From: Phycisphaerales bacterium
GTDB taxonomy: Bacteria > Planctomycetota > Phycisphaerae > Phycisphaerales > UBA1924
Assembly: GCA_035627955.1 (NCBI GenBank)
Contig: DASPKU010000014.1
Coordinates: 1-64,000, forward strand
DNA: 64,000 nt
Direction: 5' to 3'
Shown: piece by piece, positions 17,588 to 35,191 of the stretch
Layout: the number at the start of each line of letters is the position of its first letter
Position numbering within the stretch: the stretch's first letter is position 1
Translations under genes and position numbers: made by a program
Notes under the pieces: generated by a model
Database searches by the model: none
The model's input: the letters and a program-made list of their open reading frames with translations, nothing else
Told to the model about the DNA's origin: nothing

Positions 17588-18832
17588 TCAGACCGGCGAC
17601 TTCAGCTCTCGCGGCCCCAGGGTCTGGATGGTCACTTTTCCCAGCCGCCTGGTCGCAAGATAACCATTGAGCTGATCAAGAGTTACGGCATCGATCTGGC
17701 GGGCCAGCTCCTCCAGGGAGCGGGGCCTGCCCAGCTTCCGCTGGTCCGAGGCCAGGGCCACCGCCCGGGACCCCGTCGACTCCCCACTGAACACCAGGCC
17801 CGACTTCATCCCCACCTTGGCGCGCTTGAACTCGTCGGGCGTCACCGCTCCCGCGCCCTCGTTGAGGCGGTTGAGCTCGCCAACGAGTACATCGAGCGAC
17901 TCCTGAGCGCGCTCGGGCGTGGTGCCGACGTACGCGGTGACCACGCCGTAGTCGCGGTCCGCGCGGTACCCGGCCGAGACCGAGTAGCACAGCCCGCGCT
18001 TCTCGCGCACCTCACTGAAGAGCCGGCCCGACATCCCGCCCGAGAGAACACTCACTGCGAGGCGCTCAAGGACGCACTCGGGCGCCGGCTCGGGGGGTGC
18101 ATCGTGGGCGAGGATGATCTGCACCTGGTTGCTCTCGTCCGTCTCATGGGCATACCCGCGAGTGGGCGGCGATGTTGGCCTGGGCTCCTCGGTGTTGCCC
18201 GACCAGCCGTTGAGCAGGTCATTGAGGGCCCGCTCGATGGCATCTGGATCGACCGCACCCGCGGCCGCGAAGATGGCGCGACCGGGCTTGGCGAGGCTGC
18301 TCCAGCCATCTGCTAAGTCCTCACGGGACAGGGAGTTCAGGCCTTCCTCGGTGCCCATCCCGCTGCGATTGAACGGGGCCGCGTGGTGGCGCGAGCGGGC
18401 CAGGAGCATCGCGCGCTCCTGCGGATCATCCTTGAGTGACGCGAGCGACTGGAGCGCGAGGTCGCGGCAGGGCTCCACCGCGTCTTCATCCATGCGAGGC
18501 CTCAGCACCATGTCCACGATCAGCGGGAGCGTGTCGAGGAAGCGCTCGCCGAGCATGGTCGAGCCCACACGCATCGTGTAGGTGCCCAGCTCGGTCGCGC
18601 GGCTGGCGCCGAGGCGGTCCGCGGCGTCAGCGTGCTCGCGGCTGGAGCGCGGGCCAGCGCCGCGGAGCAGGAGCTCGGCCCACATGGTGGAGAGCCCCTC
18701 CTTGTCGGCCGGGTCGTACGCCGACCCGGCGGGGAGGAGCCAGCACATCGCGGCGGAACGGACGCCGCTCATCGGCTCGACGATGAGGGGCATGCCACAG
18801 CGGAGCGTGCGAGTGGTGATCGTGGTTGTCAT
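17588..18832 (-). CDS. M16-family peptidase-like protein lacking the zinc motif
   Basis: This 414-residue protein has the two-lobed M16B (insulinase-like) fold signature. The first lobe runs from MTTTITTRTLRCGMPLIVE. The second lobe contains GGMSGRLFSEVREKRGLCYS, the conserved Arg/Tyr-containing segment. At the place where active M16 enzymes carry HxxEH, this protein has GLSTMWAELLLRGAGPRSSRE, so both His ligands are missing. It should therefore be a non-catalytic partner, like the alpha-type subunits of heterodimeric processing peptidases. No catalytic M16 gene lies next to it in this window. The start at 18832 is preferred; an upstream in-frame start at 18868 adds only 12 unlikely residues. 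Confidence 0.85.
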   Translation of the reverse strand: MTTTITTRTLRCGMPLIVEPMSGVRSAAMCWLLPAGSAYDPADKEGLSTMWAELLLRGAGPRSSREHADAADRLGASRATELGTYTMRVGSTMLGERFLDTLPLIVDMVLRPRMDEDAVEPCRDLALQSLASLKDDPQERAMLLARSRHHAAPFNRSGMGTEEGLNSLSREDLADGWSSLAKPGRAIFAAAGAVDPDAIERALNDLLNGWSGNTEEPRPTSPPTRGYAHETDESNQVQIILAHDAPPEPAPECVLERLAVSVLSGGMSGRLFSEVREKRGLCYSVSAGYRADRDYGVVTAYVGTTPERAQESLDVLVGELNRLNEGAGAVTPDEFKRAKVGMKSGLVFSGESTGSRAVALASDQRKLGRPRSLEELARQIDAVTLDQLNGYLATRRLGKVTIQTLGPRELKSPV

Positions 18833-19299
18833 GGCGGGCAGTTTAGGGACATGCGCCGAGGCTTGCATGGGCGGAAACCCCTGTTTTTGCCGAGTGAAAC
18901 TGGGGTGCGGAGGTCGCGTGGATTAAGCCGGGTGATGTGGAGGATGTGAGCATGGCTCACGCGCGGGCTGCGTGGGCGCGCGGCTGATCGACCGCGCGAT
19001 GATGGTCCAGCATCCGGCATCGACGCGCGCTGCGCGATGCTTGAGACGCGGCGCGCAGAGGTTGGAACGGTTCCAATCGCGCCTCGGATGCGCTCGCGCC
19101 GCTCATCGGAGCGCTTCAAGAAGGGTCGAAGAGGTCATCGCGCGAGAATTCCGCGCGCCTCGCGCCACTTTCTCCACATTTTTTCTGTTCGCTCAAGCAC
19201 AACACCCCGCGCTTCCGATAATCTGTCTACATCCGGAGAATCGCGCGAGCGATGCTGTGGTGCTCACTCGACGGATTCTCGCATTCGAAGGAGTCGGAC
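18833..19299. other. Gene-free region with an operator-like palindrome
   Basis: This 467-bp region separates the minus-strand M16 gene and the plus-strand 24-residue peptide gene. It holds a perfect 15-bp odd palindrome, TTGGAACGGTTCCAA, at 19062-19076, the size and symmetry of a LacI/GntR-type operator. An AT-rich stretch around 19165-19230 contains GATAAT (19217-19222), a plausible -10 for the peptide gene. No convincing coding frame is seen. Confidence 0.45.
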
Positions 19300-19374
19300 A
19301 TGGCTAAGAAGGCTGCCAAGAAGAAGGCGAAGAAGAAGGCGTCCAAGAAGGCTTCCAAGAAGAAGGCCCGATGA
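19300..19374 (+). CDS. 24-residue Lys/Ala-rich basic peptide
   Basis: A very short ORF encodes only Met, Ala, Lys, Ser and Arg: it starts MAKKAAKKKAKKKASKK and ends KKKAR. AAGGAG lies six bases before the ATG, and a strong intrinsic terminator lies 70 bp after the stop, so it looks like a complete small transcription unit. The composition matches the C-terminal tails of bacterial histone H1-like proteins; the DUF1801 protein at 34637 in this window ends in a similar tail. It would bind nucleic acids by charge (inference). It could instead be the remnant tail of a larger gene, but the ribosome binding site and terminator argue against that. Confidence 0.6.
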   Translation: MAKKAAKKKAKKKASKKASKKKAR

Positions 19375-19445
19375 CGCGAGGGCGTCGCAGGTCGACGCCC
19401 TGAAAACGCCTGTTTTCGAGGCGAAAAATCGAAAACTCGACGAAC

Positions 19446-19475
19446 AAGGGGCCGCAAGGCCCCTTGCTCGTTTTT
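19446..19475 (+). terminator. Rho-independent terminator after the Lys/Ala-rich peptide
   Basis: A perfect 8-bp stem AAGGGGCC/GGCCCCTT with a GCAA tetraloop (19446-19465) is followed by TGCTCGTTTTT. It ends the short transcript carrying the 24-residue peptide. Confidence 0.85.
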
Positions 19476-19562: not shown

Positions 19563-20159
19563 ATGACCACCACCGAGACCCACGCCGCGCTGCGACGGCT
19601 CCACCGGTTCTACGAAGGCGTGCTCAACATCGACGAGCGCTTCGAGCGGACCAACTTCGTCATCGACCCGGCGACGAGGCGCCCGGTGTTCCCCGCCAGC
19701 CCGGGGGTGCTCGAGGCCGAGCAGCTGACCATCCACATCCCCGAGGATGAGCCGGGGGCGCTGCACGCGGCCGGCGCGCCTGTGGAGCTCGACCCGCTCC
19801 GCGATCCCGCGTGCGACCGGTATCTCTTCTACTTCGGCAAGCCGCGCTGGAGCCGCTTCGCCGCGCTCAACCTCGAGCACATCAAGAGCGTCGACCTGGT
19901 GGTGGACGCGGACGAGCTGGTGAGGAACCCGCTCGCCGGCGCCGAGCCGGCCCTCTGCCGCTGGGCCAACCAACACCCCGACCTGCTCGTAAGTGCTTGC
20001 CAGAAAAGAGCTAATGTTACCCCAACAAAACCCCGACTTGTCGGAGTTGATCCCTACGGCCTCGACATCCGCGCCGAGTTCGGGCCCGTACGAGTTGAGT
20101 TCGACGAGCTGCACGAGGACGAGGCGTCGTGGCGCCGCACGCTCGAGGTGTTCGCGTGA
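19563..20159 (+). CDS. Possible PPOX/HugZ-like protein
   Basis: This 198-residue protein starts MTTTETHAALRRLHRFYEGV. The middle part (RYLFYFGKPRWSRFAALNLEH and VDLVVDADELVRNPL) and the end (LVGVDPYGLDIRAEFGPVRVEF) resemble the split-barrel plus C-terminal segment of pyridoxamine-phosphate-oxidase-like proteins of the HugZ/DUF2470 group. No heme- or FMN-binding residue can be named with confidence, so the function is left open. The stop overlaps the GTG start of the amidohydrolase gene by 3 bp (GTGA), so the two are translationally coupled. Codons for residues around 140-165 (19985-20050) are unusually A/T-ending compared with the rest of the gene. Confidence 0.55.
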   Translation: MTTTETHAALRRLHRFYEGVLNIDERFERTNFVIDPATRRPVFPASPGVLEAEQLTIHIPEDEPGALHAAGAPVELDPLRDPACDRYLFYFGKPRWSRFAALNLEHIKSVDLVVDADELVRNPLAGAEPALCRWANQHPDLLVSACQKRANVTPTKPRLVGVDPYGLDIRAEFGPVRVEFDELHEDEASWRRTLEVFA

Positions 20160-21472
20160 GCGCGCGCCCGACGAACCTCCGCGAGGCCCACGCCCACCTC
20201 CCATGGCACGCTCGCGCACTCTCGATGGTCCGGCTCGACGCCTGCACGAGCGCTGGCGAATGCCTGGACCTGCTCGCTGCGCGGGCGGCGACACTCGCGC
20301 CCGACGAATGGCTGATGGCGGTTGCCGCACGTGTGCAGGCGTGGGAGGAGGGTGCGTGGCCACCCTTGGCCGCGCTCAACAAGGCGAGCGGCGGTCACCC
20401 GTGCGTGGTGATGTCCTTCGACCTTCACAGCGCGATGGCGAACACCAAGGCGCTCGATCTCTCGGGCGTGCTCCAATCAACGCCCGCCGGCGGCGTGGTG
20501 TGCACGGACAATCGCGGTCAACCCTCGGGCGTGCTGCTCGAAGCTGCGGCCCAGCGCGCCTTCCAGTCCGCGCCGGAGCCGACGAGGGAGCAGTGGCGTG
20601 GGTTGCTCCCGTTCGCACTACAGGACCTTGCCAGGCATGGGTTTACGGAAGTGCACGACCTGCTCGCCCCGGCATGGCTGGGGCCGATGCTCGCGGCCAT
20701 TGACCGTCGCGGAGAACTGCCGCTCAGTGTGCGGCTGTTCGTTCCATACGCGGAGCTTGGCCGCGCACTGGCCGAGCGCAGCGGGTGGACCACGGACCGC
20801 GTGTCGCTCGCTGGCGCCAAGCTCTTCGCAGACGGAACGCTCAACAGCCGCACCGCCCACGTGCTCACGCCCTGCGCGGACCCTCTCCCAGATCACCCCC
20901 ACGGCACCATTATCACTGATACTGCAACCCTCCAGCGCGCCATCGAGGAAACCGCTCGCCTGGGGATGCAGCTCGCCGTGCACGCCATCGGCGATGCCGC
21001 CGTGCGGAGCGTGCTCGATGCCGCGGAGGGCGCGCTGTCAGCACTCCGTTCGTATGTGAGACACGGGCGCCTCGGGCACGAGCGCGCCAGGGCAGGCCAC
21101 GTCCGCATCGAGCACTGCGAACTGATCGACGAAGCCGACGTGCCCCGCTTCGCGCAGCTTGGCGTCACCGCCAGCGTGCAGCCCTGCCACTTACTGGCCG
21201 ATATCGAGGCTCTTAGGCGCTACTTCCCGCACCGGCTCCAACGTGTGCTGCCGCTCCGCGAGCTGATCGATGCCGGCCTGGAGCCCGGACGCACGCTCAT
21301 CTTCGGCAGCGACGTCCCCGTCGTGCGGCCCGACCCGGAGGACAGCATCCATGCCGCGGTCTACCGGCGACGCGAGGGCATGGGCGAGGGAGAGGCCATC
21401 GCCCCCGCGCATGCGATCACCGAGGCAGAGGCATGGGCCTGCTTCCGCCCCGCGTACCCACTCACTTCTTGA
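20156..21472 (+). CDS. Amidohydrolase family 3 (YtcJ-like) metal-dependent hydrolase
   Basis: From the GTG at 20156 the product has 438 residues. Metal-site features are visible in family order: HAH at residues 12-14, the Lys in SLAGAKLFADGTLNSRT, His in LAVHAIGDAAV, His in GHVRIEHCELID, and Asp in IFGSDVPVV. Family 3 enzymes usually have 60 or more residues before the HxH motif, forming a beta-sandwich. Here the HxH lies almost at the start, so the protein is N-terminally short. The GTG overlaps the preceding stop by 3 bp (GTGA), which supports this start. The substrate is unknown; members hydrolyse C-N bonds in diverse amides. It ends 11 bp inside the convergent small membrane-protein gene. 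Confidence 0.85.
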   Translation: MSARPTNLREAHAHLPWHARALSMVRLDACTSAGECLDLLAARAATLAPDEWLMAVAARVQAWEEGAWPPLAALNKASGGHPCVVMSFDLHSAMANTKALDLSGVLQSTPAGGVVCTDNRGQPSGVLLEAAAQRAFQSAPEPTREQWRGLLPFALQDLARHGFTEVHDLLAPAWLGPMLAAIDRRGELPLSVRLFVPYAELGRALAERSGWTTDRVSLAGAKLFADGTLNSRTAHVLTPCADPLPDHPHGTIITDTATLQRAIEETARLGMQLAVHAIGDAAVRSVLDAAEGALSALRSYVRHGRLGHERARAGHVRIEHCELIDEADVPRFAQLGVTASVQPCHLLADIEALRRYFPHRLQRVLPLRELIDAGLEPGRTLIFGSDVPVVRPDPEDSIHAAVYRRREGMGEGEAIAPAHAITEAEAWACFRPAYPLTS

Positions 21473-34636: not shown

Positions 34637-35191
34637 ATGCCCGACAAAGCCACCACGGTCAAGGAGTACCTCGCGACGCTCTCCCCCGATGAGAGGGCCT
34701 CGGTCGAGGCGGTGCGGAAGACCATCCTCGACAACCTCGACAAGGAGTACAGCGAGGGCATCCAGTACGGCATGATCGGCTACTGCGTGCCGCACTCGGT
34801 CTACCCGGCCGGCTACCACTGCGACCCGAGGCAGCCGCTGCCCTTCGCCGGCATCGCCGCGCGAAAGGGCTACGTCTCGCTCTACCTCAACTGCGTGTAC
34901 GGCAACGAGGGCGAGCGCGAGAAGTTCGTGGAGGACTGGAAGAAGACCGGCAAGAAGCTGGACATGGGCAAGTCCTGCATCCGCTTCAAAAAGCTCGACG
35001 ACATCCCGCTCGAGGTCGTGGGCCGGGCGGTGAAGCGGCTGCCGGCGAAGAAGTACATCGCCGACTACGAGGCCGCCCTCGCCGCAATGGGCAAGCCGCG
35101 CGGACCCGCGAAGGCGGACAAGCCTGCGGCCAAGAAGGCTGCCACGAAGGTGGTCAAGAAAACGGCGAAGAAGGCCGCGAAGAAGGGCTGA
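34637..35191 (+). CDS. DUF1801-type protein with histone H1-like Lys/Ala tail
   Basis: This is 184 residues. Residues 1-145 fit the YdhG/DUF1801 fold: TVKEYLATLSPDERASVEAV near the start, GMIGYCVPHSVYPAGYH, YVSLYLNCVYGN and SCIRFKKLDDIPLEVVG. The last 35 residues are a Lys/Ala/Pro tail (KADKPAAKKAATKVVKKTAK...) like eukaryotic linker histone tails and the 24-residue peptide at 19300. DUF1801 proteins are often small stress or iron-linked proteins; no precise function is known. The tail would give DNA or RNA binding (inference). Confidence 0.82.
   Translation: MPDKATTVKEYLATLSPDERASVEAVRKTILDNLDKEYSEGIQYGMIGYCVPHSVYPAGYHCDPRQPLPFAGIAARKGYVSLYLNCVYGNEGEREKFVEDWKKTGKKLDMGKSCIRFKKLDDIPLEVVGRAVKRLPAKKYIADYEAALAAMGKPRGPAKADKPAAKKAATKVVKKTAKKAAKKG

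Follow-up and report, generated by a model that had tools for sequence, protein, structure and literature searches.

The question raised by this locus is whether an open reading frame of only 24 codons, built from five types of amino acid, is a gene in its own right and, if so, what its product does. The frame lies in a 64,000-nucleotide stretch of DNA from a Phycisphaerales bacterium, hereafter called the window. Read from the ATG at 19300, it encodes MAKKAAKKKAKKKASKKASKKKAR, a peptide of 13 lysines, seven alanines, two serines, one arginine and one methionine (K/A peptide). An in-frame ATG upstream, at 19252, would give a 40-residue alternative; in relatives, the start that carries a Shine-Dalgarno site is the one at MAKK. 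The preliminary description saw here a self-contained unit of ribosome site, short frame and terminator, and all three were found in the sequence (Table 1), with synteny, promoter, Shine-Dalgarno site and terminator conserved in relatives.

Table 1. Features of the K/A locus and its syntenic neighbours in the window.
Feature	Position	Strand	Basis
M16 peptidase, syntenic, divergent	17588..18868	-	Neighbour comparison, domain search
-35-like element CTCAAG	19192..19197	+	Motif in 76/79 orthologous ORFs with at most 2/12 mismatches
-10-like element CCGATA with a spacer of exactly 17; overlaps the GATAAT box	19215..19220	+	Orthologue promoters; same class before fliM in 28/30 relatives
Stable 5' UTR hairpin, arms 19236-19252 and 19264-19280	19236..19280	+	Folding
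Shine-Dalgarno site AAGGAG	19288..19293	+	Sequence; such a site in 67/68 complete K/A genes of the multi-species scan
K/A peptide gene, 24 codons plus TGA (19372-19374)	19300..19374	+	Sequence; conserved among relatives
Structured stretch past the stop codon, ahead of the terminator	19379..19436	+	Folding
Intrinsic terminator, 9-bp stem, T-rich tail	19445..19472	+	Sequence; terminator feature at 59/79 orthologous ORFs
Hypothetical gene c2, syntenic, downstream	19563..20159	+	Matched in 133/150 family genomes
Amidohydrolase (PF07969), syntenic	20129..21472	+	Neighbour comparison, domain search

General searches said little about the locus. Pfam gave no match for the window peptide, Rfam gave none at the locus (a tRNA was its only match in the window), and a sigma70 consensus scan found no promoter. 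A terminator consensus scan returned two overlapping sites against a shuffle mean of 1.2, a signal that is weak taken alone; terminator-like hairpins within 220 nt past the stop were counted at 59 of the 79 orthologues compared with 15 of 395 shuffles.

Synteny in related genomes, proposed earlier as a check, bears the gene out: a K/A ORF occupies the same slot in many genera, bounded to one side by an M16 peptidase or by what reads as a dihydrodipicolinate reductase gene, and to the other by c2 followed by the amidohydrolase. The c2 gene was matched once per genome, save in one genome; the window copy has no Pfam match, and the c2 of one relative reached DUF2470 just above the cut-off. When 61 genomes were searched at the DNA level, 54 gave a match, mostly on the K/A codons. 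The DNA-level pattern MAKK-x-KKK-[A/G], with a gap of 0-9 bases, was positive in 73 of the 150 family genomes, and its reversed control in none of them. Eighty places were fetched from part of the listed rows (G018, which lacks a pattern match, among them); one cluster comprised ORFs that are 13-23 residues long and have an AGGAG-like site directly upstream, and a separate set had at least 42 residues, partly other genes. In 60 further c2 regions a K-rich ORF of 12-148 residues precedes c2 in 29; the other 31, a few of them at contig ends, have none, which counts against the main reading. Six loci (L082, L095, L097, L112, L127 and L139) carry the K/A gene where the c2 match is weak or placed too far upstream, and in genus g12 the K/A genes are located away from c2. 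The resulting orthologue set comprised 79 ORFs at 74 loci, five tandem pairs sharing one promoter each. What these comparisons establish is a single gene whose position, promoter, ribosome site and terminator have been retained across different genera and families within one order of the Planctomycetota, which the record titles identify as Phycisphaerales.

The promoter proved to be the most uniform part of the locus. The GATAAT box of the preliminary description is real and forms part of the conserved -10 half; what had been missed is that a -35 half is conserved too and that the promoter is of a flagellar type. The LacI-like palindrome reported with it, TTGGAACGGTTCCAA, is present near 19066-19080, but its exact pattern occurs within 400 nt upstream of only one of the 79 ORFs, the window's own. 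By comparison, CTCAAG-N17-CCGATA precedes 54 of the 79 without mismatch, 18 with one and four with two, and the spacer is 17 in all 76 although 15-19 was permitted. No promoter within two mismatches was found for L072, L073 and L085, the last being cut by a contig end. Among Markov-shuffled upstreams, 2.4% reach this threshold of at most two mismatches. Short and long K/A forms have the promoter in common, and in the window the copy at 19192 is the sole site with at most one mismatch.

Beyond the family, the K/A gene was found at 19 of 20 loci fetched from other families of the order, 18 of them matching the motif exactly and one differing at two positions; 16 of the 20 loci were picked for the coincidence of promoter and gene, those of G044, G056 and G048 were not, and that of G189, picked for the motif alone, is the one without a K/A gene. 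In G189 an identical copy of the promoter motif occurs seven times (L284 and six others), at least five of them near contig ends, and is probably a repeated element. A multi-species scan for the exact motif together with ATGGCNAARAAR, the MAKK start, over 84,980 species genomes yielded 85 stretches. Among the 80 matches listed, 78 were K/A genes and two were chance matches (Tateyamaria and Thiocystis); 76 of the 78 came from records titled Phycisphaerae or Planctomycetota. The exact motif is present in 124 of 201 genomes of the order (27 sites counted for the reversed control). Fifty-eight motif loci were taken, of which 54 were readable, giving 14 K/A genes and 40 other sites. The targets identified among the 40 were fliM (two), fliD and cheW (spacer 16), and that a flagellar or chemotaxis gene lies behind only four of the 40 counts against the main reading. 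Among those of the 40 that were tested, five PD40 beta-propeller genes (L231, L235, L288, L293 and L298) were also observed behind the same promoter, the other tested sites giving no clear target. The PD40 proteins, 395-463 residues as read, mostly have a lipoprotein-like start, and their genes possibly belong to the same regulon.

The relation to motility was examined in the 450 nt upstream of fliM, fliD and flagellin genes, allowing at most two mismatches in the 30 loci returned per search, a part of all matches. The promoter occurs before fliM in 28 of 30 relatives and before fliD in 10 of 30, against a shuffle background of 0.7% for each (0.7-1.3% over the three gene sets). Two loci were cut by contig ends, their recheck leaving the result unchanged, and L418 offered just 144 nt of upstream sequence. 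Two observations count against the main reading: the motif precedes none of the 30 flagellin genes, and the fliM of the window genome itself has the -10 half GCCGATAA but lacks a CTCAAG at the matching distance. Control ORFs rarely carry the motif, which makes a housekeeping promoter of general use unlikely: it was found before 0.9% of 576 long ORFs, and the sole case with at most one mismatch was the K/A promoter itself.

A sigma factor of the FliA/WhiG family scored above the cut-off in 145 of the 150 family genomes (236 bits in the window genome). Five genomes have none above it, including, by best E-value, G122, G129, G148 and G154, all of which have a K/A gene. G058, with a K/A gene and a promoter at one mismatch, likewise lacks a FliA above the cut-off, and all these cases count against the main reading. 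Searches for FliM and FliD in G042, G048 and G050 found neither, and searches for flagellin in G042 and G048 found none. All three genomes retain a FliA-type sigma above the cut-off, and G042 (one mismatch) and G048 (two mismatches) retain the K/A gene with its promoter.

The consensus for sigma28/FliA promoters is TAAAG-N15-CCGATAA, with a spacing of about 15. The K/A promoter resembles such promoters in its CCGATA(A) -10 half, in the TCAAG of its -35 half and in being common to fliM; it differs in its spacer of 17, two nucleotides above that consensus, and in that the flagellins lack the motif. As regards the features of a sigma28 regulon, fixed spacing and sharing with fliM were thus seen, sharing with fliD in part and with flagellin not at all. 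Judged from the promoter sequence, the K/A gene is likely to be under FliA control.

The orthologues vary far more in length than in composition, ranging from 12 to about 150 residues. At one end stands MAKKKAKKKKKK, 12 residues long and present in two tandem copies in G159; at the other is a 148-residue form in G116, the longest found before c2. The window peptide had been placed among the shortest H1-like proteins, rightly, and is outdone by the 12-residue tandem form. Tandem pairs of 12-17-residue genes, about 95-104 nt apart, were noted in five genomes of genus g3 (L125, L126, L127, L128 and L151); each copy has its own Shine-Dalgarno site, and they are among the shortest forms. In the fetched family set 54 of the 79 ORFs have at most 25 residues, a proportion inflated by the search pattern. 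The multi-species scan is less biased, and its 68 complete K/A genes divide into 35 of up to 25 residues, six of 26-60 and 27 longer ones, with 12 rows left out (two chance matches, eight running off contig ends and two with K+R of at most 45%). Versions of 102 and 97 residues are encoded by strains ZRK32 and ZRK34, which the scan covered as complete chromosomes. Mapped onto a tree built from 59 c2 proteins, the short or long label requires eight changes (bootstrap 7-9) compared with 19.3 in shuffles, so that the length class is inherited, probably with several switches; the well-supported branches by themselves force one change only.

The 79 ORFs, 3,568 residues in all, hold no D, E, F, W, Y, C or H and consist almost only of K, A, S, T, G and R, an absence partly built in by selecting ORFs on at least 33% lysine or on the MAKK pattern. 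Further features bear on selection at the coding level. The first and second bases of codons 1-3 (M, A, K) are identical in all 75 distinct genes, whereas codon 2 is close to random in its third base (1.71 bits); this conservation cannot be put down to the pattern alone, because the genes found through c2 were chosen by lysine content and lysine near the start and not by ATGGC context. Third codon positions vary and residues are kept, with pN/pS = 0.30 over 42 pairs, which were preselected at 75% or higher peptide identity, lowering pN. Lysine is exchanged for arginine among orthologues.

Hc2 and proteins of the NF038053 type are rich in lysine and alanine and have neither acidic nor aromatic residues, a trait that the 79 K/A ORFs display. 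We know of no short forms among the NF038053-type proteins. The proposal that the window holds a self-contained gene for an H1-like basic peptide draws strong support from the synteny, from the conserved promoter, Shine-Dalgarno site and terminator, and from relatives that reach 148-150 residues; the long ones examined give weak H1-like and HC2 scores below the cut-offs. Against PF07382 (HC2), three of four long orthologues scored 20-26 bits (cut-off 40); against NF038053 all four scored 14-28 bits (cut-off 80; E-values 2e-6 to 0.06), and one scored 19 bits against NF038052 (cut-off 135). Two short peptides, of 23 and 25 residues, gave no score against these models. The long orthologues thus resemble the Burkholderia/Bordetella-type H1-like protein (NF038053) in their K/A-rich repeats, yet lie far below its cut-off.

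Another parallel is offered by HctB/Hc2 of Chlamydia (PF07382, NF038052), another PVC bacterium; this too is a lysine-rich H1-like repeat protein varying in length with repeat number, and it is sigma28-dependent. The K/A genes differ in spanning a twelve-fold length range, down to 12 residues, in lying below the family cut-offs and in that their regulation is deduced from the promoter only. According to the available excerpts of the respective papers, chlamydial Hc2 is 165-237 residues long, as set by repeat number (PMC2848022), a sigma28 knock-down in C. trachomatis significantly lowered only hctB and tsp (PMC10597470), and later ChIP work treats both as sigma28 targets (PMC12282069). A further excerpt counts against the main reading, as nucleoid condensation in Chlamydia persists despite knock-down of hctA and/or hctB (PMC13317200).

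Taken together, these results give good support to the gene as such, to its conservation and to the class of its promoter. The best explanation of the whole, which we hold to be probable if by no means secure, is that the window carries a real, monocistronic gene whose product is a minimal H1/Hc2-like polycation and which belongs to a sigma28-like regulon, in parallel to chlamydial hctB. A FliA/WhiG-type sigma, carried by nearly all these genomes, would read CTCAAG-N17-CCGATA, and the peptide would be made alongside a motility or dispersal programme. It would neutralise and help to compact DNA, possibly RNA, as is thought for HctB under sigma28, and selection would keep its charge but not its length or exact residue order. 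Nucleic-acid compaction, the idea of the preliminary description, is plausible and would be the most reasonable function for the K/A peptide. Plasmid DNA is packaged by oligolysines of at least 16 residues, K8 being less stable, in the excerpt available (PMC4991294). Since the short K/A peptides have only 9 to 14 positive residues each, binding by single copies should be weak and reversible, or else the peptide would have to be abundant.

Composition leaves the ligand unspecified, however, and the polycation may instead act on ribosomes or RNA, on polyphosphate or on an acidic surface of the flagellar apparatus. The promoter class ties the gene to fliM, and K/A stretches also occur on other proteins of these genomes. 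We regard such a target in place of chromosomal DNA as unlikely, given that the closest sequence models, albeit below cut-off, are DNA-binding H1-like proteins and that two genomes lacking FliM, FliD and flagellin still have a K/A gene.

The transcript itself is structured. Over 69 distinct 5' UTRs the median folding z was -1.23, with 32% below -2 (0.09 and 3.9% for 77 upstream control pieces), and the whole predicted window transcript has a z of -3.79, one of 200 shuffles folding equally well or better. The stretch past its stop codon folds alone into hairpins at 19379-19401 and 19407-19423; when the whole transcript is folded the second lies at 19412-19436. In the 53 orthologues whose terminator lies 45 nt or more past the stop (37 short-ORF, 16 long-ORF), the 3' UTRs of short-ORF genes are both longer (median 140 nt compared with 72 nt) and more strongly folded (median z -2.07 with 51% below -2, compared with -0.93 and 19%). 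A small hairpin of the CGGAC..GTCCG or GGGG..CCCC type was also seen to abut the Shine-Dalgarno site at seven loci (L078, L089, L090, L113, L114, L117 and L118), its arms differing yet pairing.

These differences would suit a dual-function RNA, in which the short-ORF transcript is chiefly a structured regulatory RNA with a tiny ORF aboard, and in genus g71 two-sided changes occur at 13 of 84 predicted pairs among six related sequences. The RNAalifold covariation term for the same six sequences is nevertheless about zero. The frame, start context and residues are kept across genera and the UTR sequence is not (an alignment of 37 5' UTRs was too divergent for a consensus fold); a word search of the 3' UTRs returned nothing of note except terminator-like and G+C-rich words, none distinguishable from terminator and G+C-rich stem, and Rfam is silent at the locus. 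We therefore judge a chiefly regulatory transcript to be quite unlikely, and UTR structure could serve as a stability aid or a second function of the polycation gene. A small RNA with no coding role, which the preliminary description would have recognised by a hairpin conserved without its frame, is rejected, the reading frame being conserved, though the RNA too has structure.

A short lysine-rich ORF followed by a terminator, with a dapB-like neighbour (as read) in some genomes, also recalls a lysine-codon leader peptide attenuating that gene or a downstream operon. This is highly improbable: orthologues of 45-148 residues occupy the same slot, lysine is exchanged for arginine, the gene has its own terminator before c2, the dapB-like gene is divergent and the K/A genes of g12 lie away from c2, and the leader was rejected on the orthologue lengths and the exchange. 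Low-complexity ORFs arise easily, but a chance ORF or the decayed tail of a longer gene has a negligible probability here, being contradicted by the pattern control, the same-slot orthologues with conserved promoter, ribosome site and terminator, and the multi-species scan.

The 12- to about 150-residue orthologues of this one gene form a natural series in which to study the charge and length requirements of a nucleic-acid condenser, and the match to the fliM promoter makes it testable whether sigma28 control of an H1-like protein, as in Chlamydia, predates parasitism. A bolder extension, put forward tentatively and with more doubt than belief, is that Planctomycetota and Chlamydiae share an old trait, a lysine-rich condenser of the nucleoid that is controlled by a flagellar-type sigma28 and couples the making of dispersal cells to chromosome packing; in Phycisphaerales the condenser would have repeatedly shrunk to 12-25 residues and been able to outlast flagella together with its sigma factor. 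Were this so, no smaller gene dedicated to chromosome architecture would be known. Annotation limits usually exclude genes of 12-25 codons, and a basic-protein gene conserved across an order can be missed for that reason. No such gene was described among the matches listed from the open literature, searched by title and start of abstract, subscription literature lying mostly outside.

Other K/A-rich proteins were observed in these genomes. Tails or N-terminal extensions of this kind occur, by reading only, on an HU-like protein (L132), a ribosomal protein L24-like protein (L029) and a 461-residue ORF of L021, and also on the DUF1801 protein of the window (34637-35191). The last had been said to carry the same tail as the peptide; its tail is indeed K/A-rich, but the likeness is one of composition only. 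A second K/A family, of 66-76 residues, has MAKK repeats first and a conserved end, RRTVxYSSKGKKLYAVRD..FKDIQQYSRAHA, and was found at L092, L100, L102, L105, L143 and L144, and probably at L080, L138, L140 and L149.
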